Origin: Streptomyces sp. NBC_00285
GTDB taxonomy: Bacteria > Actinomycetota > Actinomycetes > Streptomycetales > Streptomycetaceae
Direction of reading: 5' to 3'
Assembly: GCF_036174265.1 (NCBI RefSeq)
Contig: NZ_CP108055.1
Coordinates: forward strand, 1,984,001-2,048,000
DNA: 64,000 nucleotides
Shown here: positions 40,521 through 62,727 of the stretch, piece by piece
How positions within the stretch are numbered: the stretch's first letter is position 1
Layout of the letters: every line of letters starts with the position of its first letter
The notes under the pieces: model-generated
The model's database searches: none
The model's input: only the letters and a program-made list of their open reading frames with translations
What the model was told of the DNA's origin: nothing
Translations under genes and position numbers: made by a program

Positions 40521-40545
40521 GGGGAGCTCCTTCGGCTCTTCAGAG

Positions 40546-40750
40546 GTTCGAATGCACCGGACGGCTCGTAGGGCTCGCCAGCAGCACGACATACGATTCG
40601 AAACTTTTCGAAACCTCTGCGTTTTCTGGCCGACAAATTAGGTGCGGTTTTACGGTCGGTCAATACGCCTGACGAAATAACTTTCCGTACCAATCGCGCC
40701 CTGGACCGTTCCGAAAGCTTGCGCTACCTTCCCCGTAAAGCTTCGAAAGG
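40546..40750. promoter_or_regulatory. Cluster of TTCGAA operator-like boxes between sugar importer and lacI
   Basis: The divergent promoter region holds GGTTCGAATG at 40546, ATTCGAAAC at 40596-40604, TTTCGAAAC at 40606-40614, TTCCGAAAGC at 40709-40718 and GCTTCGAAAGG at 40740-40750. The core TTCGAA is palindromic and two boxes lie 10 bp apart, one helical turn. One box overlaps the lacI ribosome site region and others lie near the importer start. They are candidate binding sites for the LacI-family protein encoded at 40758. Confidence 0.6.
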
Positions 40751-40757
40751 ACCCAGC

Positions 40758-41789: not shown

Positions 41790-41831
41790 ACCCCACGCGC
41801 CGTCCTGCGCCACCACCCCGAGGAACGCACC

Positions 41832-44138
41832 ATGACCACACCTTGGGCCGATCCGGCCTGCCCCCGTCCCGAAAGGGTCGACGCCCTGCTCGCGGAGATG
41901 ACCCTGGAGGAGAAGCTGGCCCAGCTCGGCAGCGCCTGGCCCGGCGTCGAGCGCGTCAGCGGCAACGTGGCCCCGATGCAGGACGTCTTCGCCCGCCACA
42001 CCGACTTCGAACAGGCCAGCAAGAACGGCCTGGGCCACCTCACCCGCCCCTTCGGCACCAAGCCGGTCGATCCCGCCCAAGGAGCGCGCCAACTCGCCTC
42101 CCTCCAGCGCGAGTTGATGGAGAGCACTCGGCTCGGCATCCCCGCCATCGCCCACGAGGAATGCCTGACCGGGTTCACCGCCCACCGCGCGAGCGTCTTC
42201 CCCACCCCCCTCGCCTGGGCCGCCGCCTTCAACCCCGATCTCGTCGAACGCATGGCCAACGCGATCGGCACGAGCATGCGCCGGGTCGGCGTCCACCAGG
42301 GCCTCTCCCCCGTCCTGGACGTCGTACGCGACTACCGCTGGGGCCGGGTCGAGGAGACCCTCGGCGAGGACCCGTACCTGGTCGCCACGAGCGGCGCCGC
42401 CTATGTACGGGGACTGGAGACGGCGGGGATCGTCGCCACGCTCAAGCACTTCGCCGGGTACTCAGCCTCCAGGGCCGCCCGTAACCACGCCCCCGTCTCC
42501 ATGGGGCCCCGCGAGTTCGCCGACGTGATCCTGCCGCCGTTCGAGACGGCGATACGCGAGGGCGGCGCCCGCTCGGTGATGAACTCCTACGCCGATGTCG
42601 ACGGCATGCCCGCAGGCGCGGACGCCGGGCTCCTGACCCGACTCCTGCGCGAGGACTGGCAATTCGAGGGCACGGTCGTCTCCGACTACTGGTCCGTCGC
42701 CTTCCTGCGCACCATGCACCGCATAGCCGCCGACTACGGCGAGGCCAGCGCCCGCGCCCTGACGGCCGGCATCGACGTCGAACTGCCCGACACCCTCTGC
42801 TACGGCGAACCACTCGCCGAACTCGTCCGCGCGGGAACCGTCTCCGAGGACCTGGTCGACCGGGCCGTACGCCGCGTCCTGCACCAGAAGGCCGAACTCG
42901 GGCTGCTCGACGCCGACTTCACCCCGGAGGTCGACATCAAGGAACCGATCGATCTGGACCCGCCCGCGCACCGCGCCCTGGCCCGCGAACTCGCCGAGCA
43001 GAGCATCATCCTGCTCGACAACCGTGCGGGCCTCCTGCCTCTCGCCGCGGACACGGCGTCCATCGCCCTGGTCGGCCCCTGCGCCGACGACGCCAACGCG
43101 TTCTTCGGCTGCTACTCCTTCCCCAACCACGTCCTCCCCCACCACCCCGGCCACGACAACGGCATCGAGGCGCTCTCCCTGCTCGACGCCCTGGCCATGG
43201 AGCTGCCCCGCGCCCTGATCAGCTACGAACAGGGCTGCCCCGTCAAGGACACCGACCGTGCCGGCTTCGACGCGGCGGTGGAGGCAGCCCGGCGGGCCCA
43301 GGTGTGCGTCGCTGTCGTCGGTGACCGCGCCGGTCTCTTCGGCCTGGGCACCTCGGGCGAGGGCTGCGACGCCGAGGACCTCTCGCTGCCGGGCGTCCAG
43401 GGCGAACTGGTCGAGGCCCTGCTCGCCACCGGCACCCCGGTCGTACTCCTCGCCGTCTCCGGCCGCCCGTACGCGCTCGGCGCCTACGCCGACCGTGCGG
43501 CCGCCGTCGTCCAGGCCTTCTTCCCCGGCGAGGAGGGCGGCCCCGCCCTGGCCGGTGTGCTCTCCGGGCGGACCACCCCTTCGGGCAGACTGCCCGTCCA
43601 GATCCCGCGCACGCCGGGCGGGCAACCCGGCACCTACCTCCACGCCCCGCTCGGCGGCAACACCGAGGGCGTCAGCAACCTCGACCCCACCCCGGCCTAC
43701 CCCTTCGGACATGGACTGTCGTACACGACGTTCGCCTACGACGGGTTCGAGCTGAGCGCCCAGGAGATCCGCACGGACGGCGAGGTCGAGATCAGCTGCC
43801 TGGTCCGCAACACGGGCGAGGTCCCCGGCTCCGAGGTGGTCCAGCTCTACACCGCCGACCCCATCGCCCAGCTCCCGCGCCCAGTAACCCAGTTGACCGG
43901 CTACGCGCGCGTCCGGCTCGGCCCCGGCGAACAGCGCAGGGTCACCTTCCGCCTGCACACCGACCGCCTCGCCTACACCGGTCCCGGCCTGCACCGCATC
44001 GTCGAACCCGGCGAGATCACCGTCATGATCGGCGCCTCCAGCACCGACATCCGCCTCACCGGCACCATCCACCTCACCGGACCGGTCCGCGAGCCCGGCC
44101 ACGATCGAGTACTGAACACTCCGGCCGATGTCGGCTGA
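41832..44138 (+). CDS. Glycoside hydrolase family 3 (beta-glucosidase/xylosidase)
   Basis: The protein is 768 aa and has no signal peptide, so it acts in the cytoplasm on imported oligosaccharides. It has the GH3 N-terminal barrel (nucleophile D285 in VVSDYWS), a C-terminal alpha/beta domain (about 395-615, KHFAG motif earlier at about 205) and a fibronectin-III-like domain (about 655-755, ending in the typical VMIGASSTDIRL). Length and context resemble BxlA beta-xylosidases. Beta-glucosidase is the alternative. It is co-directional with lacI and probably co-transcribed. Confidence 0.87.
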   Translation: MTTPWADPACPRPERVDALLAEMTLEEKLAQLGSAWPGVERVSGNVAPMQDVFARHTDFEQASKNGLGHLTRPFGTKPVDPAQGARQLASLQRELMESTRLGIPAIAHEECLTGFTAHRASVFPTPLAWAAAFNPDLVERMANAIGTSMRRVGVHQGLSPVLDVVRDYRWGRVEETLGEDPYLVATSGAAYVRGLETAGIVATLKHFAGYSASRAARNHAPVSMGPREFADVILPPFETAIREGGARSVMNSYADVDGMPAGADAGLLTRLLREDWQFEGTVVSDYWSVAFLRTMHRIAADYGEASARALTAGIDVELPDTLCYGEPLAELVRAGTVSEDLVDRAVRRVLHQKAELGLLDADFTPEVDIKEPIDLDPPAHRALARELAEQSIILLDNRAGLLPLAADTASIALVGPCADDANAFFGCYSFPNHVLPHHPGHDNGIEALSLLDALAMELPRALISYEQGCPVKDTDRAGFDAAVEAARRAQVCVAVVGDRAGLFGLGTSGEGCDAEDLSLPGVQGELVEALLATGTPVVLLAVSGRPYALGAYADRAAAVVQAFFPGEEGGPALAGVLSGRTTPSGRLPVQIPRTPGGQPGTYLHAPLGGNTEGVSNLDPTPAYPFGHGLSYTTFAYDGFELSAQEIRTDGEVEISCLVRNTGEVPGSEVVQLYTADPIAQLPRPVTQLTGYARVRLGPGEQRRVTFRLHTDRLAYTGPGLHRIVEPGEITVMIGASSTDIRLTGTIHLTGPVREPGHDRVLNTPADVG

Positions 44139-44471
44139 GCGCAGCGGCTCCGGCCGCGGTGGCTTCCGGTATCAGCCGTAGGAGTCCTCAAGTAGGGAAC
44201 CTGTGCCCGCAGCCAGGACCGCGACCGCCGTTTACTGCGCTCACGCTCAGATCTGACGGCCGGCGCGGTACGGCGGCTGGTGTCCCGCCAGGGGCTGCCG
44301 TTCCCCCGAGATGTCTGCCGGACATCGGCGCCGAGACTGGCGGCAACCCATCCCGGGCCGCAGAAGAACTCACAGTTCTGGTTGTCGGCCAGAACGTCCC
44401 CGCGCACATCGGTCACGATCACCGCAGCGTCGGCGACCGGGCCCCGCTGTCGGCGGAGCGCACCACCCCGG
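44139..44471. other. Degenerate stretch, possible PAS-like fragment on the minus strand
   Basis: There is no intact gene. On the minus strand 44305-44437 reads VADAAVIVTDVRGDVLADNQN and then loses pattern, which resembles the start of a PAS domain of the kind found in SpoIIE-type phosphatases. The rest looks like scrambled coding sequence. This is the left edge of the most rearranged part of the window. Confidence 0.25.
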
Positions 44472-44735
44472 TCAGCCCGCCACCAGCACAACCAGGCTGA
44501 CCAGAAGCATGCGGCGCTTGCCGACCATGTCTCCCGGTCGGCCCATCACGGGGGTGGCAACGGCGGCCGCGAGCAGTGTGGCGGTGATGACCCAGGAAGT
44601 GTTCGACGGCGAGGGTCCCAGGTGCTTCGGAAGGTCCGGGACGATCGGGATGACCAGGGACTGCATCAGCAAGAACACGATCCCGCCCCCGCCCACGCGC
44701 CGCCGCTTCTCCGTGGTGACCGCGCGGACGTGCGC
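44472..44735 (-). pseudogene. N-terminal fragment of an MFS drug exporter
   Basis: About 80 codons read TTEKRRRVGGGGIVFLLMQS, then a second hydrophobic part with VITATLLAAAVATPVMGRPGDMVGKRRMLL, which is the MFS loop-2 signature of EmrB/QacA-type exporters. A stop follows immediately (VVLVAG then TGA), so only two helices remain. It lies directly downstream of the tetR gene on the same strand and may be a former partner of it. Confidence 0.65.
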
Positions 44736-44759
44736 TCTGCATCGGTGACGGCGGCAGCT

Positions 44760-45422
44760 CTACGACCGCAGCAGGTACCGGCACGCCATGTCGCTCAGGG
44801 AAGCGAGGAAGGCGTCGTCGTCGGCCTCGGCGTCGGCGATGGCCGGTCCGTACGCCACGCGGACGACGAGTGTGGAGAAGACGGTGGTGTACGCGGCCCG
44901 CACGGCCGGCTCCGGGTCATCGTGGTCCATGTGCTCGCCGACCTCGAGCAGGACGCCGGTGAAGAGCCGGCCGAGTTCTGCGCTGTAGGCAGCACCGCGC
45001 CGGTGGATCTCCGGGTGCGCTCCGGAGATGAGGATCACCGCTCGCAGCAACGCGGCATGCCGGCCGAAGATGTCGGCGACCGCGCGCACCGCCCGTTCCA
45101 CAAGCAGGTCCGGCGACAGGTCCCGCCAGTGCCCAGCGTCGGCGAAGACCGAGTGGTCGGCCCGGACACGGGCCAGCCCGTGCTCGTAGACGGCGAGGAA
45201 CAGAGCGTCCTTGCTGTCGGTCCGGGCATAGATCGCCCTCGGCGCCACCTGGGCACGGTCGCACACTGCCGCGATCGTGAACGCCTCGTACCCGCCCTCC
45301 TCCAGCAGTGCCACCCCGGCGTCGAGCACCCGTGCCCACGCCTCCCGACTGCGTTTCTGCAACGGCGGCCTGATCGCGAGGGGATCGCCAGCGGCGTTAT
45401 CAGCCGATGTGGACGACGTCAC
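44760..45422 (-). CDS. TetR-family regulator
   Basis: The protein is 220 aa from GTG 45422 (GGAGGG 9 nt upstream). The earlier in-frame TTG at 45449 has no such site. The N-terminal helix-turn-helix (about 20-70) includes EAFTIAAVCDRAQVAPRAIYARTDSKDALF, and the C-terminal ligand domain is helical. Upstream lies a promoter with two GTAG...CTAC inverted repeats that also occurs, with a fragment of this same gene, at 54786-54933. The intact protein may therefore act on both. Confidence 0.85.
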   Translation of the reverse strand: MTSSTSADNAAGDPLAIRPPLQKRSREAWARVLDAGVALLEEGGYEAFTIAAVCDRAQVAPRAIYARTDSKDALFLAVYEHGLARVRADHSVFADAGHWRDLSPDLLVERAVRAVADIFGRHAALLRAVILISGAHPEIHRRGAAYSAELGRLFTGVLLEVGEHMDHDDPEPAVRAAYTTVFSTLVVRVAYGPAIADAEADDDAFLASLSDMACRYLLRS

Positions 45423-45467
45423 CGATGGGTTCCCTCCGATGCGCGGCAACCGCCGCCGAACAGTTAC

Positions 45468-45522
45468 TTGACAGAACCGTAGCAGGCGCTACCCTCTTGC
45501 TTTAATCGTAGCGCTCACTACG
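45468..45522 (+). promoter_or_regulatory. TetR-type promoter/operator, copy A
   Basis: TTGACA (45468-45473), 16 nt, TACCCT (45490-45495). The spacer holds GTAGCAGGCGCTAC (45479-45492), a perfect 5-bp inverted repeat overlapping the -10 box. A second repeat, CGTAGCGCTCACTACG, lies at 45507-45522 around the expected transcription start. Binding would block the plus-strand promoter. The same layout is found at 54879-54933. Confidence 0.65.
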
Positions 45523-45553
45523 CTTTGACCATTTCCACTGCCGGAGGACCTTC

Positions 45554-45592
45554 ATGCTGATCGCGTTCGGCAGTGTCCGCGCCCTTCCCTGA
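45554..45592 (+). pseudogene. 5' stub of an ABM-type monooxygenase gene
   Basis: After a good ribosome site (CCGGAGGA) the frame reads MLIAFGSVRALP and stops. The intact gene at 54966 starts MLIVIGSARALPGRRADL, so this is the broken start of the same gene. The sequence after it, to 45817, is degenerate, with only short pieces such as a frame ending TLITDWIADTFAVATT and no gene that I recognise. Confidence 0.65.
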
Positions 45593-45817
45593 CCTGAGAC
45601 CAGGCCGTCCACGCCCCCAACCGCGACCTGCGGATCTCCACCCCCAACGAGGGTGCCACCGAGCACATCGGGCTAGATCCACCTCGCGCACGTCAGCACC
45701 TTGATCACCGACTGGATCGCCGACACCTTCGCCGTGGCGACGACGTGACCGCACTCGGCAGAGGGATGACAGCCAGATCCCTGCCGCATCGCGCACCACT
45801 ACCTTCCAAGGAATCTC

Positions 45818-46672
45818 ATGTTCGCCAAAATCAACGGTATTGATCTCTTCTTCGATGTCGTCGGATCGGGTCTCTCTGTAATGGAGAAGAGTCTCGAATC
45901 GAAGCCGGTGCTGTTCGTTCACCATGGGGGCCCGGGAGGCGATCACAGCCTTTTCCGACCGTGGCTCGACGGCCTGCAGGACACGGCGCAGATCGTCTAC
46001 TTCGACCACCGGGGCACAGGACGATCCAGCCGCGCAGACGTCAGCACCTACACGTTGGAACAGATGGCCGACGACATCGAGGCGCTGAGGCTCTATCTCG
46101 GGATCGAGGCGCCTGTGCTGCTTGGCGCCTCATTCGGCGGCATGGTCGCTCTGCAGTACGCCGTCCGCTATCCCGATTCGCTGTCGAAGCTGATCCTGGC
46201 CGACACGGCGCCGAGCAACGAATATCACGCGCTCTCGATGAAACAAGTTGCCGAGGTGGCCAGCGCAGAGCAGATGGAGCTGATAACAGCTCTGTTCGGG
46301 GGGACCATTACCCCTGAGAAGTACGCCAGGTGGGCCGAAGTCGTCGGGCCCCTCTACTACCGTACGGTCCCACCGCTGGCCGAAAGGGAAGCTGTGGACG
46401 CACGCGTAATAGCCGGACCCGAGGTGGCTGAACACGTCATGAAGCACGAACTGCCTTCTTATGACGTCCGTGCACAGCTGGGCGCCATTCACATTCCAAC
46501 CCTTGTTGTCACGGGTAGGTATGACTGGGTCACACCGCCATCACAGTCGGAAGAAATCGTGAAGGGGATTCCCCATGCAAACTTCCACATCTTTGAGAAC
46601 TCCGGCCACAACCCTTTGGTGGAAGAGACTCAGGAATTCCTCCAGACCATCTCTCGATTCATTCAGTCATGA
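45818..46672 (+). CDS. Alpha/beta hydrolase, proline-iminopeptidase-like
   Basis: The protein is 284 aa. It has the oxyanion motif HHGGPGGDHS near residue 32, nucleophile elbow GASFGG near 106, acid in GRYDWVTPP near 236 and catalytic His in SGHNP near 264. The HGGPGG motif and overall shape match prolyl aminopeptidase/epoxide-hydrolase-type enzymes. Codon use is clearly less GC-rich than in neighbouring genes, a sign of recent transfer. A good ribosome site (AAGGAA) precedes the ATG. Confidence 0.85.
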   Translation: MFAKINGIDLFFDVVGSGLSVMEKSLESKPVLFVHHGGPGGDHSLFRPWLDGLQDTAQIVYFDHRGTGRSSRADVSTYTLEQMADDIEALRLYLGIEAPVLLGASFGGMVALQYAVRYPDSLSKLILADTAPSNEYHALSMKQVAEVASAEQMELITALFGGTITPEKYARWAEVVGPLYYRTVPPLAEREAVDARVIAGPEVAEHVMKHELPSYDVRAQLGAIHIPTLVVTGRYDWVTPPSQSEEIVKGIPHANFHIFENSGHNPLVEETQEFLQTISRFIQS

Positions 46673-46689
46673 GACAAGAGAATCAGATG

Positions 46690-47105
46690 AACACGGTTCC
46701 CTGATCACAAACACCGACCTCGTCGATGGCCTTGGGGGCATTCCCAAAGCTGGGCCCAGCGTCCTGATGGACGCAGGCCGCGCTGCCTGGATCGGCCAGG
46801 GCAAGAACGCCCCCTCCATCGGCGAAAAACCCGCAATCGACGGCAATGCCGCTCCCTGATTCCCGGCCTCATCAACTCTCATGTCCACGTGAACTCTCAT
46901 GTCCACGGGGCGAATGATGGCCCCGCCGGCCTCTTCGAGCAGGTTGTTAACGCATGCGCCGTCACCACCGTGCGTGACGACGGTGGTGCGAACGGAATCG
47001 CTATCGAGTTGGGCAAAGCGGCCGAGGCCGGCCCCTCGTCGAAGGTCCCCGAATCGTGGCAGCCGACCGGGTCATCACCATGACGGGCGGTCCGGTCACT
47101 TCATG
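46690..47105 (+). pseudogene. Remnant of a metal-dependent amidohydrolase
   Basis: Scattered over frames are the hallmarks of an imidazolonepropionase-like amidohydrolase: LITNTDLVDGLGG, the metal motif INSHVHVN, AVTTVRDDGG, and then RIVAADRVITMTGG. Stops and frameshifts (for example the stop at 46857) interrupt it, and the whole C-terminal part is absent. An intact gene of the same family lies 1.2 kb downstream (48336), although the two are not close copies. Confidence 0.65.
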
Positions 47106-47154
47106 GGAGCACTCGCAGCCTCGAAGCTCGCACCGAACGCAAAGGAGCAACGCT

Positions 47155-48111
47155 ATGACTCGAGTTCCGTATGATTCCGAGCTTCAACCCACAGCCGATC
47201 AGTTCATGGCCACCTACGGTCCGACCATGCCCGCGCACGTTGTCCCATTTGCGCGGTCCCTTTTCGAACAGCAGGTGCCAGGGTTGGACGAGCTCACCGC
47301 CGGTCGCCAGGTCTCCGCACGCACCATCGAAGTCCCAGGTGATGAAACTGGTCCCGCATCCGCCATGACGATCTTTTCGCCGGAGTCGACCGCTGCTGGT
47401 TGCGGAGTGTTCTACATCCACGGCGGAGGGATGGTGATGGGGCATCGGCTAGGCGGCGCGGACGACCTCGTCACCTTGGCGGAGCAGTTGCAGGTGCCGG
47501 TTTTCACCATCGATTACCGGCTTGCACCGGAGGACCCATATCCAGCGGCCGCGAACGATGTACGACGTACCTGGCTCTGGGTGGTTGAACATGCAGCTGA
47601 GCTCGGCGTTGACCCAAGCAGCCTGATCCTCATGGGCGGCAGCGCCGGCGGAGGATTGGCTGCCGGACTGGCTCTGCGTCTACGGGACGAAAAATTGCAG
47701 ACACCTCTGGCGGTCTGCCTACTTTCACCCATGCTCGACGATCGGAACGAATCCGTTTCCAGTCACGACTACGATGGCACCTCGTTGTGGGACCGCGGCT
47801 CCAACCTGATGGCATGGGAAGCCCTCCTGGGTGCGGAGCGATCAACGGTTTCCGCATACGCGGCACCAGCACGCGCCACAGATCTCTCCGAATTGCCACC
47901 CACATATCTTGAAGTTGGTTCGTCCGAGGTATTCCGCGATGAGGTCACTGCATTCGCATCGCGACTGTGGGCTGCCGGCAACCTGGCCGAACTGCACGTG
48001 TGGGCCGGCGGTTTCCACGGGTTCGCCACCTTCGCACCACAAGCGCGGGTGAGCGTGGCATCTCTCACGACTCGTAACGATTGGCTGCGCAGGACGCTTC
48101 TGTCCCGATGA
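47155..48111 (+). CDS. Alpha/beta hydrolase-fold esterase (HSL family)
   Basis: The protein is 318 aa from ATG 47155 (AAAGGAG 8 nt upstream; the longer frame from 47056 is not supported). It has the HSL-type oxyanion motif YIHGGGMVMG near residue 85, nucleophile motif GGSAGGGLA near 160, an acid near residue 260 and His in GGFHGFATF near 292. It hydrolyses small esters or amides. Like its upstream neighbour it has lower-GC codon use than the core genome. Confidence 0.87.
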   Translation: MTRVPYDSELQPTADQFMATYGPTMPAHVVPFARSLFEQQVPGLDELTAGRQVSARTIEVPGDETGPASAMTIFSPESTAAGCGVFYIHGGGMVMGHRLGGADDLVTLAEQLQVPVFTIDYRLAPEDPYPAAANDVRRTWLWVVEHAAELGVDPSSLILMGGSAGGGLAAGLALRLRDEKLQTPLAVCLLSPMLDDRNESVSSHDYDGTSLWDRGSNLMAWEALLGAERSTVSAYAAPARATDLSELPPTYLEVGSSEVFRDEVTAFASRLWAAGNLAELHVWAGGFHGFATFAPQARVSVASLTTRNDWLRRTLLSR

Positions 48112-48126
48112 ACCCCCACTCACGCA

Positions 48127-48339
48127 GTGCGGGAGATCTTCGCCGACCACGACCTGATCGAAGGGCTCGGCTGCGGCTCGATCATCCACGTCCCCGTGAT
48201 CGCCGATGGCCGGACGCTCGGGGTGCTCAACATCCTCGACGCGGAAGCCACCTACGACGACGATGCGGTGGTGGTGGCCGAATCGCTCGCGCCGCCGGCC
48301 GTGTCCGCCCTGCTCAACCTGGAGAAGGAGAACCGGTGA
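48127..48339 (+). pseudogene. C-terminal fragment of a GAF-domain protein
   Basis: The 70 codons from GTG 48127 read IREIFADHDLIEGLGCGS-type sequence, then IHVPVIADGRTLGVLNILD, the second half of a GAF domain. The first half of the domain and any start context are missing, so this is probably the 3' end of a truncated gene. Its stop overlaps the next start by 4 bp (GTGA), so the original pair was a coupled GAF protein and amidohydrolase. Confidence 0.65.
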
Positions 48340-49553
48340 CCGGATCCCTGCTGCTGCGCAATGCCCGCCTGCTCGACCCGCTGTCCGGGAAGTACACCGA
48401 AGGCGACCTGCGGTGTGATTCCGGCCGGATCGTGGAGGCGGGGCCCGGTCTCGCCGCGGCCGACGTGCGTTCGATCGACGTCCGGGGCGCGGTCGTGCTG
48501 CCGGGGCTGGTCGACGCGCACGTGCACGTCACGGCGTCGACCGCGGATCTGGGCTCGCTGCCGTCGTTGTCACCGTCCTATGTGGCCGCTCATGCCGCGC
48601 GCACGATGAGCCGGATGCTCGACCGCGGATTCACCACGGTCCGTGACGCGTCGGGTGCCGACTACGGCCTCGCCGACGCCCAGGCGGAGGGGCTGTTCCG
48701 CGGCCCGCGACTGCTGTTCTGCGGGCGCGCGCTGAGCCAGACCGGCGGGCACGGCGACAGCCGCACCCGCGGCACGCAGGCGAAGGACGATCACCCGTGC
48801 TGCGTGGGCCTGGGCCGGGTGGCCGACGGCGTCGACGCGGTCCGCGCGGCCGCCCGTGACGAGCTGCGCAAGGGCGCCCACCACATCAAGGTGATGGCGT
48901 CGGGTGGCATCGCGTCCCCGACCGACCGCATCGACTCGACGCAGTACTCGGCCGAGGAGCTGCGCGCGATCGTCGAGGAAGCGTCAGCGGCGAACCGTTA
49001 TGTGGCGGCGCACGCGTACACCGCCCGAGCTGTCAACCGCGCTTTGGAACTGGGCGTCCGTTCGATCGAACACGGCAACCTGCTGGACGACCGGAGCGTT
49101 TCGCTGTTCCTCGCCCACGAGGCGTTTTTGGTGCCGACGCTGGTGACGTACTGGGCGCTGAAGGAGGAGGGCCGCGACCACGGGCTGCCGGAGTCGAGCT
49201 GGCGCAAGGTCGACGAGGTTCTGGGCGCAGGCATGGCGGCCCTGGAGCGTGCGGCTCGTGGCGGCGTGAAGCTGGTGTACGGGACGGACCTGCTGGGCGG
49301 GATGCACCGCCACCAGAACCACGAGTTCCGCCTGCGCGGCGAGGTCCAGACCCCGCTGGAGGTGATCCGCTCGGCAACATCGACGGCGGCGGAGTTGCTG
49401 AACCTGACGGGGGAGATCGGGACATTGGCCGTGGGCGCGCACGCGGACCTGCTGGTGGTGGACGGAGATCCGTTGGCCGACCTCGGGGTTCTGGCGGAGC
49501 CGAAGCACTTCCGCCACATCATCCAGGGCGGTGCGGTGGTCTCCGGGACCTGA
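48336..49553 (+). CDS. Metal-dependent amidohydrolase (imidazolonepropionase-like)
   Basis: The protein is 405 aa from GTG 48336. It has an N-terminal beta-sandwich, then the TIM barrel with metal motif DAHVHVTAS near residue 62, a Lys in HHIKVMASGG near 188, His in AHAYTARAVN near 228, His in SIEHGNLLDD near 250 and Asp in YGTDLLGGMH near 315. This is the prolidase/Xaa-Arg dipeptidase-like subgroup of the amidohydrolase superfamily, and the substrate is not predictable. Its ribosome site lies in the preceding GAF fragment. The following 49554-49795 holds nothing that I can call. Confidence 0.87.
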   Translation: MTGSLLLRNARLLDPLSGKYTEGDLRCDSGRIVEAGPGLAAADVRSIDVRGAVVLPGLVDAHVHVTASTADLGSLPSLSPSYVAAHAARTMSRMLDRGFTTVRDASGADYGLADAQAEGLFRGPRLLFCGRALSQTGGHGDSRTRGTQAKDDHPCCVGLGRVADGVDAVRAAARDELRKGAHHIKVMASGGIASPTDRIDSTQYSAEELRAIVEEASAANRYVAAHAYTARAVNRALELGVRSIEHGNLLDDRSVSLFLAHEAFLVPTLVTYWALKEEGRDHGLPESSWRKVDEVLGAGMAALERAARGGVKLVYGTDLLGGMHRHQNHEFRLRGEVQTPLEVIRSATSTAAELLNLTGEIGTLAVGAHADLLVVDGDPLADLGVLAEPKHFRHIIQGGAVVSGT

Positions 49554-49795
49554 CGCCGGATGCACCCCTGACGGGTGTTCACCTGTCGGGCAATCCACGT
49601 GCGGCCCACTAAGGGATAGGCACCATCGGGTCGGGCCAGGTGAGCAAAATGCGCTCCCAGTGGTGCGTCTCAGCACCAGACGGAAAACGTGTCGACCGGC
49701 ATGGGCATCCACTTGCTGCCGTTGGCGGGCTGATGCCGAACGTCGCCCGTCCCGGCACCGCCTGACGAGGCGGTGCCCGAAGGGGCGACCAGATG

Positions 49796-50905
49796 TCATC
49801 GGCGTCCGGGGTGCAATCCCAGCCAGCCCGGGGACGGTGCTCCGGTGACCTCGCCGACGTAGAGGGTCAGCTGCTGCCGGAAGCGTTCCACGAGGGCACG
49901 GTCGGCCATGAACGTGTCGAAGCCGTTCACATTGGCGTTGGGGTAGTCCCAGATGGGGCGATAGCCGGCGTGAGGGGCGACGTCGGTGCGGACGGACCAC
50001 ATGTAGAAGTCGGACTGGGTCTGCTTGTCGAGCCACCAGTTCAGGTACAGCTTGGCGGCGGCCGGGTGCTTGGCGTCCTTGAAGATGGCGGCGCGCTGGG
50101 CCCAGGCCATGAAAGGGTCGCTCTTCGGCAGGACGAAGCGGGTCCTGACCCCGTCGGCCGGGGTCAGCATGCCGTCGGTGCCGAGGGCGACGGCCGCGGT
50201 GCCGGCCTCGACCCGGTCTGCGGGTTCCTGGGTGCCCCGTACCCAGGCGATGTCCTGGGCGACGAAGCGGCGCAGCCAGTCCCAGCCGTACGTGTCGACG
50301 ATGACCTTGTAGAGGTAGAGGACGGCGTCGTCGTCGTTGGGGAACGTCGAGACGATCTTCCCCTTCCAGCGGGGGTCGAGGAGGTCCCGGGCGGAGGCGG
50401 GCGCGGCGGCCCCGGTCTTGTCGACGTTGTAGATCGTGGAGAACGCGTCGACGAAGATGCCGGTCCAGGCGCCGTCGGGGGCTTTGAAGGCGGGGTGTAC
50501 CCGGGAGAAGCCGGCCGGCTTGTAGCAGCGCAGTACGCCTTCCCGCTTCCAGCGCGAGAAGTCCTGGAGGGTCTGCAACTGAACCACGTCGGGGACGAGG
50601 GTGCCGGTGGCGAGCTGGTTGTCGATGCGGGCGTCGTGGAACTTGCTGTAGTCCACGACGATGTCCAGCGTGATGCCCGGGAACGCCTTCTCGAAGGCGG
50701 CCTTGTTGCCGTCCTGCTGGGTGGCGGTGTCGCCGCCCGCGTAGACGATCAGCGAGCCGCCTTCCGCCTTCGCCTCGCGGTACAGCTGCTCCAGGCTCTT
50801 CGTCTCCTCTCCGCCTCCCGTGGCGTGCGCCGTTCCGGCGCCCAGGGCGCCTGCGGCGGCGGTGAGTGAGCCTGCGACGAGTACCTGACGTCGTCCGAGC
50901 GACAT
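49796..50905 (-). CDS. Orphan solute-binding protein, Tat-exported, PotD/FbpA-type
   Basis: The protein is 369 aa. The N-terminus GRRQVLVAGSLTAAAGALG is a twin-arginine-type signal, with a likely cleavage at AHATGG near residue 30. The rest is a type-2 periplasmic binding fold of the iron/spermidine/2-aminoethylphosphonate group. No permease or ATPase gene lies nearby, so it must borrow a transporter or act as a sensor. It is divergent from a marR gene. Confidence 0.82.
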   Translation of the reverse strand: MSLGRRQVLVAGSLTAAAGALGAGTAHATGGGEETKSLEQLYREAKAEGGSLIVYAGGDTATQQDGNKAAFEKAFPGITLDIVVDYSKFHDARIDNQLATGTLVPDVVQLQTLQDFSRWKREGVLRCYKPAGFSRVHPAFKAPDGAWTGIFVDAFSTIYNVDKTGAAAPASARDLLDPRWKGKIVSTFPNDDDAVLYLYKVIVDTYGWDWLRRFVAQDIAWVRGTQEPADRVEAGTAAVALGTDGMLTPADGVRTRFVLPKSDPFMAWAQRAAIFKDAKHPAAAKLYLNWWLDKQTQSDFYMWSVRTDVAPHAGYRPIWDYPNANVNGFDTFMADRALVERFRQQLTLYVGEVTGAPSPGWLGLHPGRR

Positions 50906-51034
50906 GGGGGGATGGTCCCTTCGGTGCGGTGCGGTTCGATCGGCTGCAGGAAAAGTACCTGCAAAGGCAGCTATATTTCAAGCTTCAAGTATCGGATCAG
51001 CTGTCCTGATCTGCAAAAAAACACCACATGGCGG

Positions 51035-51047
51035 GCAAATATATTGC
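51035..51047. promoter_or_regulatory. Candidate MarR operator
   Basis: GCAAATATATTGC, an inverted repeat GCAA-N5-TTGC in an AT-rich stretch, lies 16 nt ahead of the marR start in the divergent promoter region. MarR proteins usually bind such palindromes next to their own gene. Confidence 0.4.
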
Positions 51048-51062
51048 TGTACCGTCAGGTTT

Positions 51063-51539
51063 ATGAGTGAGCTTCTGAACGACGGGGCGGTCGTCCTGTA
51101 CGGCGACATCCTGCGCCTGACCGACGCATTCGGTGGACGGGCCGATCGCACGATCCGCGAGGCCGCCGGGCTCGGCGGGTCCGAGTTCGAGGTGCTGCTG
51201 CGTCTGGCGCGGCATCCGGAGCGCCGTACCACCAGCGCCCGCCTCGCCCAGGACCTCTCCTTCACCTCCGGCGGCCTGACCCGGCTGATGGCCCGGATGG
51301 AAGAGGCCGGGCTGATCACCCGGCACCCTCACCCCGAGGACCGCAGGGCCTCCCTCCTGGAGGCCACCGACAAGGGCAACGACCTGCTGGATCGTGCCCT
51401 CGCCGCGCACGTCCCGCAGATGACCGCCGACCTGATGGAACCACTCACTGTCATCGAGCGGCTGATCCTGCGCGAGCTGGTGACCAAGCTGCTCGCCCAC
51501 TCCACGCGCGGCACGGTCGCCACACCCGCTGGGCCGTGA
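51063..51539 (+). CDS. MarR-family transcriptional regulator
   Basis: The protein is 158 aa from ATG 51063. It has a winged helix with TTSARLAQDLSFTSGGLTRLMARMEEAGLITRHPHPEDRRA (about 58-98), where DRR is the wing motif. The helices on both sides give the dimer interface. MarR proteins answer to phenolic or oxidative signals. It probably controls the divergent binding-protein gene. Confidence 0.88.
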   Translation: MSELLNDGAVVLYGDILRLTDAFGGRADRTIREAAGLGGSEFEVLLRLARHPERRTTSARLAQDLSFTSGGLTRLMARMEEAGLITRHPHPEDRRASLLEATDKGNDLLDRALAAHVPQMTADLMEPLTVIERLILRELVTKLLAHSTRGTVATPAGP

Positions 51540-51723
51540 CCGACCCTTCGCGGCGAAGGCCCACCGGAACGAACGGGGCACCTACGGACAACGGGGCTCC
51601 CTGCTCGTGACCGGCCTCAATAACCAGGCACCGCAAGAAGCCCGTTTCTTCATGCCCACGACCACACCGGCACCTCTGTCGCGGACCGGTTTCGAGTGAA
51701 ACGAAACCCGGACCCGAGCCCGG

Positions 51724-51785
51724 AATGAAGATCCACCATCCTGACTCCTGCTGGTCAGCAGGAGTCAGGATGGTGGATCTTCATT
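51724..51785. repeat. Perfect 62-bp palindrome (30-bp arms, 2-bp centre)
   Basis: Arms at 51724-51753 and 51756-51785 are exact inverted copies around GT. The arm starts AATGAAGATCCACCATCC. The sequence outside does not continue the symmetry. It can be an unusually strong terminator, or two insertion-element ends fused head to head after loss of the element. A gene fragment on the minus strand ends inside it. The preceding 51540-51723 holds nothing that I can call. Confidence 0.85.
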
Positions 51786-51994
51786 GGTGACAGGGCCGGA
51801 TCGTTCAGCGGGGTGCTGTTGGCGTGCAGGCGGGCCGCCCAGCCGAGGTAAGCGCGGCTCAGCATCGGTGGGACGGTGGCGCGCTGCCCGGCTGCGAGTA
51901 CCCGGTCGCGTATCGGCTCAGGCAGTCGTGGCAGAACCTCGAAGAGGCGTCCTCCGAAGCGGACGGGGAGGCTGCCGGCCGGCGACTTGCCCAC
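51755..51994 (-). pseudogene. Unrecognised C-terminal gene fragment ending in the palindrome
   Basis: From GTG 51994 the frame reads 79 residues with coherent high-GC codon use (GSLPVRFGGRLFEVLPRLPE near the start, then VPPMLSRAYLGWAARLH) and stops inside the palindrome (MKIHHPDSC). The frame is open a little further upstream without a plausible start. It looks like the 3' end of a real gene joined to foreign sequence. I do not recognise the family. Confidence 0.4.
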
Positions 51995-52038
51995 CGGAAT
52001 CAGACCGCTGCCCGCGGTCGTGGCGGAACGGCTGGGGT

Positions 52039-54714
52039 TCAGCCCTCGCCTCTCTCCTCGGCGCGGGGCCAGACCACCGTGTGTGTACCGCTACTGAACT
52101 CCTGCGGGGGCTCGTCGGTGCCGGTGTGCACGCGCGCGGTGCTGCCTGGTGGAACCCTGACTTCCAGAGTCACCTGGCTCCCGTCCGCGACCCAGCTGCT
52201 GGAGGCGGCGCCGTAGGGCGTCTGCACCTCGGCGCGGGCGGAGGTCAGCCCGCCGCCCACCAGTGGACGGACGTCGAACACGCGGTAGCCCGGTTCAGTC
52301 GGCGACAGCCCGGCGACGTATTCGGTGAGGAAGCCGACCACCGCACCGAGGGCGTAGTGGTTGTGGCTCTCTTTTGCCTCCCCCTTCGTGTTGTACCCGT
52401 TCCAGGTCTCCCAGACGGTGGTCGCCCCCTGTTCGACCTGGTACAGCCAGGACGGCGTGGTGGTCTGCAACAGCAGACGCCAGGCAACGTCGGGCCGGCC
52501 TGCGTCGACGAGGACCGGCAACAGCATCGGCGTGGAAAGGAAGCCGGTGGCCAGGTGGTCATCGGCTTCCTCGATGAGCGCGACCAGCCGGTCGACGGCC
52601 GCGGGGCGTTCTTCATGTTCCAGCAGGCCGAAGGCGAGGGCGCGGACGTAGTCGTCCTGGCGGTCGGTTCCGACACGGCCGTCGTCGTACAGGAAGGCCG
52701 CCCGCCAGGCGCTGCGCGTGTGGTCCGCGATTTCCCGGTAGCGGGTGGCATCGGCGTCGCGGCCGAGGACAGTCGCGATGTCGGACAGAGTGCGCGCGGA
52801 GTGCTCGAAGTAGGCGGTGGCCGTCACCGGGCTGTGCCGCATGCTGTCGAGAATCGACGCGGCGAAGCCCTGCCCCGGACGCAGCCACTCGCCGAAGTGG
52901 AAGCCGGTGTCCAGCAGGAAGGGGTCGACGTCAGGGTTCGCACTGCCGCGCAGGCGCCGGGTGATGCGCCGCTTCTCGCGAGCCCGGCGGGTCAGTTGAT
53001 CGACCCATGCGGTCATGCTCGGGTACTGCCGCTCCAGGACGGACCGGTCGCCGTAATACCGGTACAGCGTCCAGGGCAGAAGTACGGCAGCGTCTCCCCA
53101 GCCGGCCGACTGCGCCACCATGCGCATCAGTTTGGCCATTCCTCCGGAGAAGGACGAGGCCTCAGCGGGAACGAAGACCGGCACTCTACCGTCGGGCAGC
53201 TGCTCTGCGGCCAGATTGCGCAGGTAGCGGCGCAAGTAGGCCTGGGCGTCGACGAACGTCGTGGACGTCGGGGCGAAGACCTGAATGTCCCCGGTCCAGC
53301 CGGAGCGTTCCCGGCTTGGACAGTCCGTCGGGGTGTCGGTGAAGTTCGACCGAAGTGACCAGGAGACGTTGCGACGAAGGCGGACGAGCCGCTGGTCGGA
53401 GCAGTCGAAGCCTCCGGCGTCCGGCAACGTCGAGGACAGAACGATGCCCTCGATGTCTTGGGCACTCAGGTCGCCGGGCAGGCCGTCGACCTCGACGTAG
53501 CGGAATCCGTGGATGGTGAACCACGGGGACCACCAGGTTGCTTCGTCGCCGAGAATGACCTCGTCGCGCTGGTACCAGCGGTTCACGGGAAGTCCGTGGA
53601 TGTAGTCGATGTCCAGCTCGCCGTCCTTGCGCAGGACCTCGCTGTGCGTCAGGCGGACGGTGGTCCCGGGTCCTGCGGGAAGACGGATCCGCACCACGCC
53701 GGCGAAGTTCTGCCCGAAGTCGACGATCTGCTTACCCGAAGACGCCCGGCTGACGGTACGAGGAGAGAGCCGCTCGATCTCGCACACCGCGGGAACGTCC
53801 TCGGCGATCAGCGTGCGCCGGTCGTCGAGTACCTCGGCGAGCCCGAACCGGGCTGGTGGTGCCTGTGAGGTCAGCCAGTCCTCATCAGGTACGCGCAGGT
53901 CGACCCGCTCCCCGAACATCGGGTCGGCAGCGCCGATGCGCCCGGTCCCGGCCTGCCAGGATCCGTCGCTGACGACCGTGACCGTGCTGCCGTCCGCCAG
54001 ATCGAGATCCACCTGGACGAGGCCGGCGGTCCGGTCGCCGTAGACGGCCTGCTTCGCGGTGAGCCCGTTGGCCCCGCGGAATCTGCCGTCCCCGACCGCC
54101 ATCGACACAACGTTGCCGCCGGCACGGAAGGCTTCCGTCACGTCATAAGCCTGGTATTCCACGTACTGGTCGAACGGCGTCCAGCGCGGCACCAGCGCCG
54201 GGCCCGTGAGGTCACGTCCGTTGACGAAGAAGCGGTACCAGCCCAGCGCCGAGACGTAGGCCCGACCCCGAAGCACGGGTGCGGGAAGGTCGACCGTGGT
54301 ACGCAGGTACAGCACGCGATAGTCGGTCTTCGCCGCGGGGGCGGGCCCGCTCACCCAGCGTGCGGCCCAGCGCTCCGGGTCCAGTACGCCCGTCTCGAAC
54401 GATGCGTACTCGCTCCAAGGACCGGGTTCCTGCTCCGTCCCGGACCAGACGCGCACCCGCCACCTGTAGCGCCGGCACGACATCAGCGACGTGCCCTCGT
54501 ACGTGACACCGAAGGGCTCGGTGCCGGTCACCCGGCCGCTGTCCCAAGCCGGCTCACCCGCGGCGGAACCGTCCCCGGTGGTCACCTGCACCTGGTACGC
54601 GGCTTGGGTCACGGCCCCGGCAGGCAGCCGCCACGCGAACTCCGGACTCCGACTGCCGATGCACAACGGGCTGTCCAGCGTCTCGGTCCGCAGATCTACA
54701 GGGGCGCACAGCAT
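52039..54714 (-). CDS. Alpha-L-rhamnosidase, glycoside hydrolase family 78
   Basis: The protein is 891 aa from ATG 54714 (AAGGAG 7 nt upstream); ATG 54729 is an alternative. N-terminal beta-sandwich domains (about 1-420) precede an (alpha/alpha)6 barrel and a C-terminal beta domain. The GH78 acidic cluster DCPSRERSGWTGD is intact: D464, E469 and D476, with the same spacing as D567, E572 and D579 of the Bacillus enzyme. It has no signal peptide, so it is probably cytoplasmic. It cleaves terminal alpha-L-rhamnose from plant glycosides or polysaccharides. No rhamnose transporter lies beside it. Confidence 0.9.
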   Translation of the reverse strand: MLCAPVDLRTETLDSPLCIGSRSPEFAWRLPAGAVTQAAYQVQVTTGDGSAAGEPAWDSGRVTGTEPFGVTYEGTSLMSCRRYRWRVRVWSGTEQEPGPWSEYASFETGVLDPERWAARWVSGPAPAAKTDYRVLYLRTTVDLPAPVLRGRAYVSALGWYRFFVNGRDLTGPALVPRWTPFDQYVEYQAYDVTEAFRAGGNVVSMAVGDGRFRGANGLTAKQAVYGDRTAGLVQVDLDLADGSTVTVVSDGSWQAGTGRIGAADPMFGERVDLRVPDEDWLTSQAPPARFGLAEVLDDRRTLIAEDVPAVCEIERLSPRTVSRASSGKQIVDFGQNFAGVVRIRLPAGPGTTVRLTHSEVLRKDGELDIDYIHGLPVNRWYQRDEVILGDEATWWSPWFTIHGFRYVEVDGLPGDLSAQDIEGIVLSSTLPDAGGFDCSDQRLVRLRRNVSWSLRSNFTDTPTDCPSRERSGWTGDIQVFAPTSTTFVDAQAYLRRYLRNLAAEQLPDGRVPVFVPAEASSFSGGMAKLMRMVAQSAGWGDAAVLLPWTLYRYYGDRSVLERQYPSMTAWVDQLTRRAREKRRITRRLRGSANPDVDPFLLDTGFHFGEWLRPGQGFAASILDSMRHSPVTATAYFEHSARTLSDIATVLGRDADATRYREIADHTRSAWRAAFLYDDGRVGTDRQDDYVRALAFGLLEHEERPAAVDRLVALIEEADDHLATGFLSTPMLLPVLVDAGRPDVAWRLLLQTTTPSWLYQVEQGATTVWETWNGYNTKGEAKESHNHYALGAVVGFLTEYVAGLSPTEPGYRVFDVRPLVGGGLTSARAEVQTPYGAASSSWVADGSQVTLEVRVPPGSTARVHTGTDEPPQEFSSGTHTVVWPRAEERGEG

Positions 54715-54785
54715 GCAAGTCTCCTTCATCGCGCCGAGGAACCGTCCTCGTCCCGGCCGCGGGCGACACATCGGTAAAACGATTC

Positions 54786-54876
54786 CAGTGACAGAGCGTC
54801 CTTGCTGTCGTCCGGGCATGGATCGCCCGCGTGCGACCGGGGCACCGTCGATACCGCCGCGATCGTGAAGGCATCG
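54786..54876 (-). pseudogene. Fragment of a tetR gene, copy B
   Basis: On the minus strand this reads DAFTIAAVSTV ... PDDSKDALS, corresponding to EAFTIAAVCDRAQV ... TDSKDALFLA of the intact TetR at 44760-45422. About 180 bp present between the matching part and the promoter in copy A are deleted here. The fragment runs straight into the duplicated promoter at 54879. Confidence 0.75.
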
Positions 54877-54878
54877 TC

Positions 54879-54933
54879 TTGACAGAACCGTAGCAGGCGC
54901 TACTCTTTTGCTTCAACCGTAGCGTTCACTACG
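54879..54933 (+). promoter_or_regulatory. TetR-type promoter/operator, copy B
   Basis: TTGACA (54879-54884), 16 nt, TACTCT (54901-54906). It has the same two inverted repeats as copy A: GTAGCAGGCGCTAC (54890-54903, identical) and CGTAGCGTTCACTACG (54918-54933, one base different). It drives the monooxygenase pair at 54966 and 55287. With its own tetR destroyed, control would have to come from the intact TetR 9.4 kb away. Confidence 0.7.
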
Positions 54934-54965
54934 CTTTGCCCATCTTCCACCGTCGGAGGATCTTC

Positions 54966-55253
54966 GTGCTGATCGTGATCGGCAGTGCCCGTGCGCTTCC
55001 CGGACGCCGGGCTGACCTGGTGTCGGCCGCTCGTGCCGTCGCCACACAGTCCCGTGCGGACGAGGGCTGCGAGTCCTACGGCTTCTACGCCGACCTCACC
55101 GACGACGAGACGATCCTGAGCGTCGAGATCTGGCGCGACCAGGCCGCCCTCGACGCGCACATGGAGCACCCGCACACGCAGGAGTTCCTCGCCGCAGCCG
55201 GCTCGCTGGTCGACGGCACGCCGACGATGCATTTCCACACCGTCGCCGACTGA
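54966..55253 (+). CDS. Antibiotic biosynthesis monooxygenase (ABM)-domain protein
   Basis: The protein is 95 aa from GTG 54966 (CGGAGGA 6 nt upstream), a single ABM ferredoxin-like fold. Typical marks are the start LIVIGSARALPGRRADL, ESYGFYADLTDDETILSVEIW in the middle and the terminal HFHTVAD. ABM proteins are cofactor-free oxygenases or quinone-forming enzymes, or simply dimer-forming helpers. It is 33 nt ahead of an FAD monooxygenase gene on the same transcript. Confidence 0.87.
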   Translation: MLIVIGSARALPGRRADLVSAARAVATQSRADEGCESYGFYADLTDDETILSVEIWRDQAALDAHMEHPHTQEFLAAAGSLVDGTPTMHFHTVAD

Positions 55254-55286: not shown

Positions 55287-56525
55287 ATGAGCGTCCCCGC
55301 AACGAAGCGAGGCCGGGTCGCCGTCATCGGCGCCGGACCGGCCGGCATGGCCACCGCCCTGTCGGTCCACCAGGCCGGCCACGACGTCGTCCTCCTGGAG
55401 CGCTACCCGCAGGCCCGGCCGGCCGGCAACATCCTCAACCTGTGGCCACCGCCGATCAAAGCGCTCGGCCTGCTCGGCGTTGACATCACCGACCTGGGTG
55501 CCCCCTGCTATTCGGAGTTCCGCTCCGCGAAGGGCCGCACCCGGGCCCGCGTCAACCTGCCCGAGCACATCGTCGCCGACTACGGGGGTGGCTTCATCGG
55601 GCTGCTGCGCCCGGAGCTCTACCAACGGCTGCTCGCTGCGATGCCGCCCGGTGTCCTGCAGCTCAACCGCACGGTGGAGAGCTTCGACCAGGACGAGACC
55701 GGCGTCCGGTTGAAGATGGCCGACGGCGAGACCATCGAGGTCGACGTGCTCGTCGGCGCCGACGGCATCGACTCGCTGGTCCGCCGGACGCTGTGGGGCG
55801 ACTCACCCAAGCGGGAGCACAACCTGCACATCTTCGGCGGATTCACCTTCGACGAGGTCCTCGTCGCGGACCCGGGGCTGTGCATCGTCTCCCACAACCG
55901 GACGGTGCAGGGCAGCTGGACCTCGATCCGACACAAGGGCCGCCACGGGTTCCAGTGGTGGGTGCTGGGCGCACACGACGCCGCCACCACCTTCGACGGC
56001 GACCTGCACACCACCGCGACCGCGATGGGCGCGGAGTTCCCCGCCCCGCTGCCGCAGCTGATCGCCGCGACCGAGCCGGGCAACGTGCAGCGCTGGGTGC
56101 TGCGCGACCGCAAGCCGCTCAAGCAGTGGTCCAAGGGCCGGGCCACCCTCGTCGGCGACGCCGCGCACCCGACCTCCCCCTACGCCGCCTACGGCGCGGG
56201 GATGGCGACCGAGGACGGGTACTACCTGGGCCGCCGACTGGCCGGGCTCGACCTGAGCGAGCACGCCGCCGTCCGGGCCGCGCTCGACGCCTTCGAGGCC
56301 CCGCGCAAGCCGCACACCGCCCGCCAGGTGCAACAGGCCTACATCCTGGGCAAGGTCTTCCACCACGCCCCGGGTCCCCTCCAGGGAGTGCGGGACGCGA
56401 TCCTGGACCGGACCCCCTTCCTGCAGAAGGTGGTCGGCGAGTCCTCTCCCGGCGAGATCCTGGCCCAGATCGCCGCGATCGACGAGGCCGAGAAACGATT
56501 CGTTGCTGTGCGCGGTGGGGCGTGA
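55287..56525 (+). CDS. FAD-dependent monooxygenase (PHBH/UbiH type)
   Basis: The protein is 412 aa. The Rossmann motif GAGPAGMATALSVHQAGHDVVLLER lies near residue 15, the DG motif VLVGADGIDSLVR near 155 and the second flavin motif GDAAHPTSPYAAYGAGMATED near 288. It would hydroxylate an aromatic or polyketide-like ring using NAD(P)H and oxygen. The ATG is preceded by AGGGAG. It forms an operon with the ABM protein under the TetR-type promoter, and a cyclase-family remnant follows. Confidence 0.9.
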   Translation: MSVPATKRGRVAVIGAGPAGMATALSVHQAGHDVVLLERYPQARPAGNILNLWPPPIKALGLLGVDITDLGAPCYSEFRSAKGRTRARVNLPEHIVADYGGGFIGLLRPELYQRLLAAMPPGVLQLNRTVESFDQDETGVRLKMADGETIEVDVLVGADGIDSLVRRTLWGDSPKREHNLHIFGGFTFDEVLVADPGLCIVSHNRTVQGSWTSIRHKGRHGFQWWVLGAHDAATTFDGDLHTTATAMGAEFPAPLPQLIAATEPGNVQRWVLRDRKPLKQWSKGRATLVGDAAHPTSPYAAYGAGMATEDGYYLGRRLAGLDLSEHAAVRAALDAFEAPRKPHTARQVQQAYILGKVFHHAPGPLQGVRDAILDRTPFLQKVVGESSPGEILAQIAAIDEAEKRFVAVRGGA

Positions 56526-56671
56526 TGACGCCGGGCGGTCTCGACCGCACCGACCCCGGAGGTGCCGTCGCCGCAGCGGCGAAGCGCAACTCCAACTGGG
56601 CCGCTGGGGTGTCGACGACGTCCTGGGCACACTGAACTTCCTCGACGAGGCCAAACGCCGCGAAGGCGCCA
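56526..56671 (+). pseudogene. Remnant of a cyclase-family (kynurenine-formamidase-like) gene
   Basis: Right after the monooxygenase stop, AAKRNSNW reads in one frame and GRWGVDDVLGTLNFLDEAKRREGA in the next, one base shifted. This is the conserved N-terminus of the cyclase family (SNWGRWGxDDELGTLNxL). The rest of the gene is missing and unrelated sequence follows to rsmB, including a possible insertion-element end near 56720-56755. Confidence 0.7.
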
Positions 56672-56779
56672 CCTACAACGTCCGCCCGTCTACCTTCGGT
56701 GACCGATTGGTCGGACACCGGTCAACCAGAATGAGAATTGGTCACCCACTTTGGGGGCCTACAACACCCGTCCGGGGCG

Positions 56780-62687: not shown

Positions 62688-62727
62688 CGCCCGAGGCCCG
62701 GCCCCCGATGGGGCCGGGCCTCGGGCG
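62688..62727 (-). terminator. Terminator of metK
   Basis: A perfect 18-bp stem (62688-62705 with 62710-62727) and a 4-nt loop, 13 nt downstream of the metK stop. It is one of the strongest hairpins in the window. Confidence 0.85.

Follow-up and report, generated by a model that had tools for sequence, protein, structure and literature searches.

Can a repressor gene that has lost its own enzyme genes control those of a second decayed copy of the same module? This question arises in a 64,000-nucleotide stretch of the Streptomyces sp. NBC_00285 chromosome (NZ_CP108055.1, positions 1,984,001 to 2,048,000; here the window, whose numbering is used below), in which an intact tetR gene with a divergent promoter (copy A) and a similar promoter followed by two monooxygenase genes (copy B) lie 9.4 kb apart, promoter to promoter. 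A sequence-only reading had proposed that these are two copies of one tetR-promoter-monooxygenase module, decayed in opposite ways, and that TetR from copy A (TetR-A) acts on copy B. Here, we confirm the arrangement, with the regulator kept in one decayed copy and enzymes in the other, by comparing the 10.3-Mb window genome (G000) with a same-genus (Streptomyces) genome, G201. We further consider it probable, from sequence comparison, that the module was present twice before G000 and G201 split, that the copies underwent complementary loss, and that TetR-A represses both promoters, that of copy B in trans.

Two homologous copies with different losses

Comparison of the A region with the B region (blastn) yielded two homologous, collinear blocks, bearing out the claim of two copies of one module: 45467-45593 matched 54878-55005 (111/128 identical, 87%; E = 4e-39), and 45200-45289 matched 54791-54877 (77/90 identical, 86%; E = 9e-22). 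Since the blocks adjoin each other in copy B, 177 bp of copy A (45290-45466, comprising the tetR N-terminus and leader) are absent from copy B. Copy A contains the following features (promoter hexamers here and in copy B assigned by eye):

44760..45449, minus strand: intact tetR, 229 amino acids (aa), listed with a TTG start; TetR_N and TetR_C_15 exceed cut-off
45468..45521, plus strand: promoter/operator region A, TTGACA at 45468-45473 and TACCCT at 45490-45495
45479-45492 and 45508-45521: region A operators, 29 bp apart
45554..45592, plus strand: first 12 codons of the ABM monooxygenase gene, ending at a deletion junction
45598..45745, plus strand: remnant of the module's alpha/beta hydrolase gene, its final ~49 codons in two frames (tblastn, tblastx)
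45818..46672, plus strand: intact alpha/beta hydrolase gene, proline-iminopeptidase-like (Abhydrolase_1)
46698..47091, plus strand: amidohydrolase remnant in three pieces (tblastn with the G201 protein, 58-95%)

TetR-A was intact, as had been claimed, with a helix-turn-helix domain (PF00440, TetR_N; E = 7.9e-12) and a ligand-binding C-terminal domain (PF17918, TetR_C_15; E = 3e-07). It is the sole close member of its family in the window genome; the next best match had only 34% identity (E = 4e-7), and we therefore rejected the idea that a second intact tetR elsewhere serves copy B. The ABM frame of copy A reads MLIAFGSVRALP-stop, as described earlier, but the stop sits at a deletion junction and is not a point mutation. 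A deletion of ~7.0 kb has fused ABM codon 12 with the end of the alpha/beta hydrolase gene. Comparison with G201 thus shows copy A to be what a deletion left of an eight-enzyme operon, rather than a small module interrupted by a stop. The hydrolase remnant directly after the stop was 85-86% identical to the G201 hydrolase (tblastn) and was also matched in the relatives L030 and L010 (tblastx). The junction may hold a few further ABM bases, and the deletion may therefore have occurred in more than one step.

Copy B contains the following features:

54791..54877, minus strand: tetR fragment of about 30 codons, frameshifted
54879..54932, plus strand: promoter/operator region B, TTGACA at 54879-54884 and TACTCT at 54901-54906
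54890-54903 and 54919-54932: region B operators, 29 bp apart, the first identical to that of A and the second differing by one base
54966..55253, plus strand: ABM monooxygenase gene, 95 aa, GTG start (PF03992, E = 3e-17)
55287..56525, plus strand: FAD-dependent monooxygenase gene, 412 aa (FAD_binding_3, PF01494)
56525..56673, plus strand: start of a cyclase-family gene, third in the operon, frameshifted and truncated; intact in G201

These features agree with the sequence-only reading in the size of the tetR fragment, in the one identical and one single-base-different operator, and in the two intact monooxygenase genes. The tetR fragment is additionally frameshifted and has no readable recognition helix. 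Copy B has also decayed downstream, a point absent from the earlier reading: it ends at 56673, inside the frameshifted cyclase gene. A search of the whole window genome at E <= 1e-10 returned nothing related to the alpha/beta hydrolase of the operon.

A related genome with both copies and the full operon

We surveyed 392 same-genus genomes drawn from a larger group for TetR (E <= 1e-30) and the FAD gene (E <= 1e-90). TetR was present in 8/392 and the FAD gene in 15/392, the window genome being counted in each. In G201, whose TetR is 98% identical to TetR-A and whose copy B ABM protein is 97.9% identical, both copies are in the same states: A has an intact tetR and 12 ABM codons, the 177-bp gap of B is present as well, and none of the four operators has changed. 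Window positions 49610-51782 are replaced there by about 15 kb, so that the promoters lie 22.8 kb apart in G201 versus 9.4 kb in the window genome.

Copy B of G201 continues after the FAD gene with genes for a cyclase, a VOC dioxygenase, an FAH-family protein, two SDRs, and an alpha/beta hydrolase, eight operon enzyme genes with ABM and FAD, followed by an amidohydrolase. Self-comparison of G201 gave five collinear A/B blocks spanning 8.5 kb (15570-15659/38517-38603, 15837-15963/38604-38731, 15963-16120/45740-45895, 16860-17295/46431-46869, and 17305-17460/46933-47087). Copy A lacks the 38731-45740 stretch of B, a loss of ~7.0 kb that starts after ABM codon 12 and leaves only the final ~49 hydrolase codons, which identifies it as a deletion derivative. 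Conversely, the hydrolase gene at 45818-46672 is intact in A and matched in G201 copy B merely by a 58-residue C-terminal fragment (tblastn), whereas the amidohydrolase is intact in G201 copy B and a remnant in A. The statement that each copy keeps what the other lost therefore holds for the genes compared in G201, each of which is intact in exactly one copy. It holds only in part for the window genome, where copy B ends in the third operon gene and the genes from cyclase through alpha/beta hydrolase are intact in neither copy.

Promoters A and B show one and the same base change between G000 and G201, at equivalent positions (45500 and 54911). Gene conversion between A and B is a possible source, but one site is too little to support it. 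A 62-bp near-perfect palindrome at 51724-51785 borders the point from which the window is again syntenic with G201 and is perhaps the end of a mobile element.

Instead of an in-place duplication, the copies could be independent acquisitions of the module from related donors, an explanation that we hold to be possible but somewhat doubtful. The copies differ from each other by 13-14% in the shared blocks, compared to 2-5% between G000 and G201 around them, and the patchy occurrence of the module among the same-genus genomes also fits repeated acquisition. On the other hand, the copies lie close together and in the same orientation in both genomes, and the hydrolase remnant of A is nearer to copy B (85-86%) than to L030 (72-74%), a comparison of 49 residues only.

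The parent module in more distant relatives

A single scan of a one-genome-per-species collection returned 26 loci with TetR relatives (four of the same-genus hits, L043, L044, L045, and L048, repeat L024, L017, L018, and L031 and were not counted twice). A close homologue of the FAD monooxygenase (46-83% identity) lay within 5 kb of tetR in 18 of them, 9 of which also have an ABM gene (tblastn). An undamaged form of the parent module, for which the sequence-only reading had proposed a search in related genomes, was present in Blastococcus (L030), with tetR plus ABM, FAD, cyclase, VOC, FAH, SDR1, SDR2, and hydrolase genes in the order of G201 copy B, interrupted by a LysR-like gene (by reading) and a distant FAD-monooxygenase relative (27%). 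In Amycolatopsis sacchari (L013:6393-10001), LacI, DHDPS-family, and MFS genes stand between tetR and the FAD gene, and the tetR end and the FAD end each have their own operator; this is an independent split module. At four loci (L015, L017, L018, and L024), tetR and the operator precede a two-gene unit instead of the FAD monooxygenase. This unit is a P450 with a pyridine-nucleotide oxidoreductase in L017 (Pfam), and the other three were assigned by sequence clustering.

A paired operator shared by both promoters

In each promoter of the window the first palindrome lies between the hexamers, overlapping the -10, and the other lies downstream; this placement is as would be expected for a repressor. 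The operator GTAGYRNNYRCTAC occurs with a full match at four places in the 10.3-Mb genome, as the pair in A and the pair in B, and nowhere else. Only the way the sites pair and where they sit set them apart, and the two 29-bp pairs at promoters A and B are not chance. Scans for promoters and terminators gave no useful information; operator 1 was flagged as a terminator-like hairpin, which we read as the operator palindrome.

The operator also follows the family. In 17/26 relatives, the region upstream of tetR holds a site matching exactly (11) or with a single mismatch, compared to 0.6% of shuffled regions and 23/1142 windows of equal size from these loci, the latter count including the true sites. 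A further 5/26 have a site with two mismatches, and 4/26 (L028, L029, L031, and L034) have three or more. The extended form of the operator is about AACCGTAGTGNNCACTACGGTT (by eye). L067 and L068, the only two other same-genus FAD genes with a neighboring tetR, have an operator pair with the 29-bp spacing seen in A and B of the window genome and in copy B of G201, three of the four sites carrying one mismatch. In contrast, none of the 11 same-genus FAD genes without a neighboring tetR has an operator site within 1.5 kb; TetR is absent at E <= 1e-30 from 10 of these 11 genomes, and in the remaining one (G300) it lies on a different contig, next to the pair of P450 and oxidoreductase genes. At the sequence level, a family-specific palindromic operator is present at the regulator's own promoter and at that of its target.

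Variation among the relatives is suggestive of a specificity code linking recognition helix and half-site. L014, L016, and L019 carry the helix PPTVY instead of PRA(I/L/V)Y and have TTAG/CTAA half-sites, and the more distant TetRs of L032 and L033 (39-40%) have GAAG/CTTC half-sites.

Signs of purifying selection on regulator and enzymes

Substitutions between G000 and G201 were tested for a deficit of nonsynonymous changes (Fisher tests with estimated site numbers, 28/72%). The FAD gene (14 synonymous versus 2 nonsynonymous; ratio of nonsynonymous to synonymous rates [dN/dS] 0.05; P = 1e-6) and the hydrolase gene at 45818 (12 versus 4; dN/dS 0.11; P = 1e-4) are clearly kept by purifying selection. 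The tetR gene probably is as well (7 versus 5; dN/dS 0.27; P about 0.04), and ABM gave 2 versus 1 (dN/dS 0.17; P = 0.19).

Probable control of copy B in trans

These data suggest the following history and mechanism. The module, with tetR divergent from genes for ABM, FAD, cyclase, VOC dioxygenase, FAH-family protein, two SDRs, and alpha/beta hydrolase, would have existed in two direct-orientation copies, by duplication or two related acquisitions, before G000 and G201 parted. As comparison shows, copy A then lost ~7.0 kb of enzymes, retaining tetR and the promoter, and copy B lost tetR, retaining the promoter and enzymes. TetR-A is predicted to repress both promoters through the paired GTAGYRNNYRCTAC operators between and downstream of the hexamers, to be released by a substrate-derived ligand, to control the ABM-FAD operon of copy B in trans, and to control itself and probably the hydrolase gene 45818-46672 in cis.

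The trans branch of this predicted scheme is well supported, because decay was complementary, the operators are conserved, and the genome has a single close TetR. A TetR that binds the operators of A should also bind those of B, since one operator is identical, and a distance of 9.4 kb hardly matters for a diffusible repressor.

The cis branch follows from the deletion, which leaves promoter A facing the hydrolase gene at 45818-46672, the first intact gene downstream of it, about 300 bp on. This gene is probably a cis target of TetR-A, with promoter A reading into it. Folding of the region between the remnant and 45818 predicted a stem at ~45756-45786 (-21.2 kcal/mol for 81 bases, no T-run), which does not decide whether transcription reads through from promoter A into 45818.

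This cis target opens another explanation: tetR-A may be retained solely for itself and the hydrolase gene, with copy B an unregulated or fading relic and its operators old sequence. The deletion has indeed placed an intact, selected hydrolase gene within reach of promoter A, and copy B lacks the third and later genes in the window genome. However, both monooxygenase genes of copy B are intact, FAD is strongly conserved, and neither copy B operator differs between the two species. Binding at A should in any case imply binding at B, and the two targets are compatible. We therefore consider cis-only control unlikely. As for the idea that the two regions are similar by chance or stem from two unrelated TetR/ABM families, the E value of 4e-39, the five collinear blocks in G201, and the operator pair at both copies rule it out for practical purposes, and related strains did not show two independent families.

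Several observations weigh against control of copy B in trans or weaken its support. The -10 hexamers of both promoters, each 16 bases after TTGACA (by eye), are weak, and nothing in region A or B passed the criteria of the promoter scan for a sigma-70-like site. The backward-read control pattern has six sites in the genome, and the four operator sites are therefore no excess by number. When one mismatch is allowed in the 16-bp motif, G000 has 14 sites (backward control, 36) and G201 has 9 (backward control, 32), so TetR-A may have additional weak targets. Between A and B, 1/28 columns differ in the operators and 16/100 in the rest of the block, and better conservation of the operators was rejected because the difference is not significant (Fisher P = 0.12). 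In nine of the 26 relatives, the best site upstream of tetR has two mismatches or more. L046 and L047, with a PPAIY helix, keep GTAG half-sites with other outer bases, and the link between helix and half-site is suggestive rather than proven, as its three loci may share descent. The selection signal on tetR is marginal, and a cis target or autorepression alone could explain it; given the probable cis target, retention of tetR by itself is no proof of copy B control. Finally, copy B has lost most of the operon in the window genome, so the pathway may be dead, or it may be partly supplied by a second cluster at 9.98 Mb.

Having weighed these points, we continue to favor repression of both promoters by TetR-A. 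We also lean, with less assurance, toward a split regulon, with the copy B enzymes in trans and a deletion-captured hydrolase in cis, that has been selected through speciation despite spacings of 22.8 versus 9.4 kb. If this is true, reciprocal decay gave a repressor that had served one local promoter a second promoter to control.

Neighboring features and a second cluster

Two glycosidase genes adjoin the copies:

52039..54726, minus strand: alpha-L-rhamnosidase gene (PF17389 and others), where the rest of the copy B tetR would be; the open reading frame is listed from 54819, and the shorter start at 54726 was chosen
41832-44138: GH3 glycosidase gene

Beside tetR-A, 44474-44750 appears by reading to hold the remains of an MFS transporter, with a longer such frame at the same place in G201, and a 40-bp inverted repeat lies at 62688-62727. 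The cluster at 9.98 Mb (L076, G000:C1:9974001-9992000) holds relatives of the cyclase (80%), VOC (67%), FAH (65%), and SDR (68%) proteins and a distant FAD monooxygenase (26%); it might take over some pathway steps.

Comparison with known systems

By analogy, the module would be an aromatic-compound catabolic cluster whose substrate may be a flavonoid-like polyphenol. The ifc (isoflavone, Variovorax) and fde (naringenin, Herbaspirillum seropedicae) clusters combine an FAD monooxygenase with a glyoxalase-type dioxygenase, and the ifc hydrolase resembles 2,6-dihydroxypseudooxynicotine (DHPON) hydrolase (PMC11069340). The best PDB match of the module hydrolase is that same enzyme (2jbw; E = 2.8e-22), and that of the FAD protein is 6-hydroxynicotinate 3-monooxygenase. 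The module thus shares with fde/ifc an FAD monooxygenase, a glyoxalase-type dioxygenase, and a DHPON-type hydrolase, a likeness by enzyme types and PDB match. This trio (here with a VOC dioxygenase) occurs together in G201 copy B and L030, and the FAD monooxygenase alone remains in window copy B. The module differs in being actinobacterial, in its predicted TetR control, and in its ABM, cyclase, FAH, and SDR genes; FdeR is a LysR-type regulator. The neighboring alpha-L-rhamnosidase and GH3 glycosidase would fit glycosylated flavonoids, though only at a guess, given the best PDB match of the FAD protein. NCBIfam gave no match at or above cut-off among the matches listed (best 25 for two proteins). 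Titles and abstract openings, together with passages of PMC11069340 and PMC11303751, gave no account of this TetR/operator or arrangement.

Like other local TetR repressors of divergent catabolic or oxygenase operons, this tetR is divergent from its target and has palindromic promoter operators. Here, however, the adjacent target is deleted, and the operon is on the other copy, 9.4 kb off (22.8 kb in G201). Reciprocal loss after gene duplication is known as duplication-degeneration-complementation. In keeping with it, copy A of G201 retains tetR and the hydrolase corresponding to 45818, and copy B retains eight enzymes and the amidohydrolase. The present case differs in that a regulator and its operon are divided rather than two functions of one gene, that the window genome has lost part of the operon from both copies, and that the copies may have arisen otherwise than by duplication.

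Two related genomes thus offer a natural case suggesting how complementary gene loss can make a local regulator act in trans. Different genomes show the module in different states: intact in L030, divided by three intervening genes in L013, in complementary copies with the whole operon in G201, and in complementary copies with part of the operon gone in the window. The operator is clearly delimited, and its natural variants, with those of the recognition helix, hint at a specificity code. For annotation, the case is a warning against taking a tetR next to a truncated gene for an orphan as a matter of course. The component parts are of known kinds; what is unusual is that one decayed copy has kept the regulator and the other has kept enzymes.

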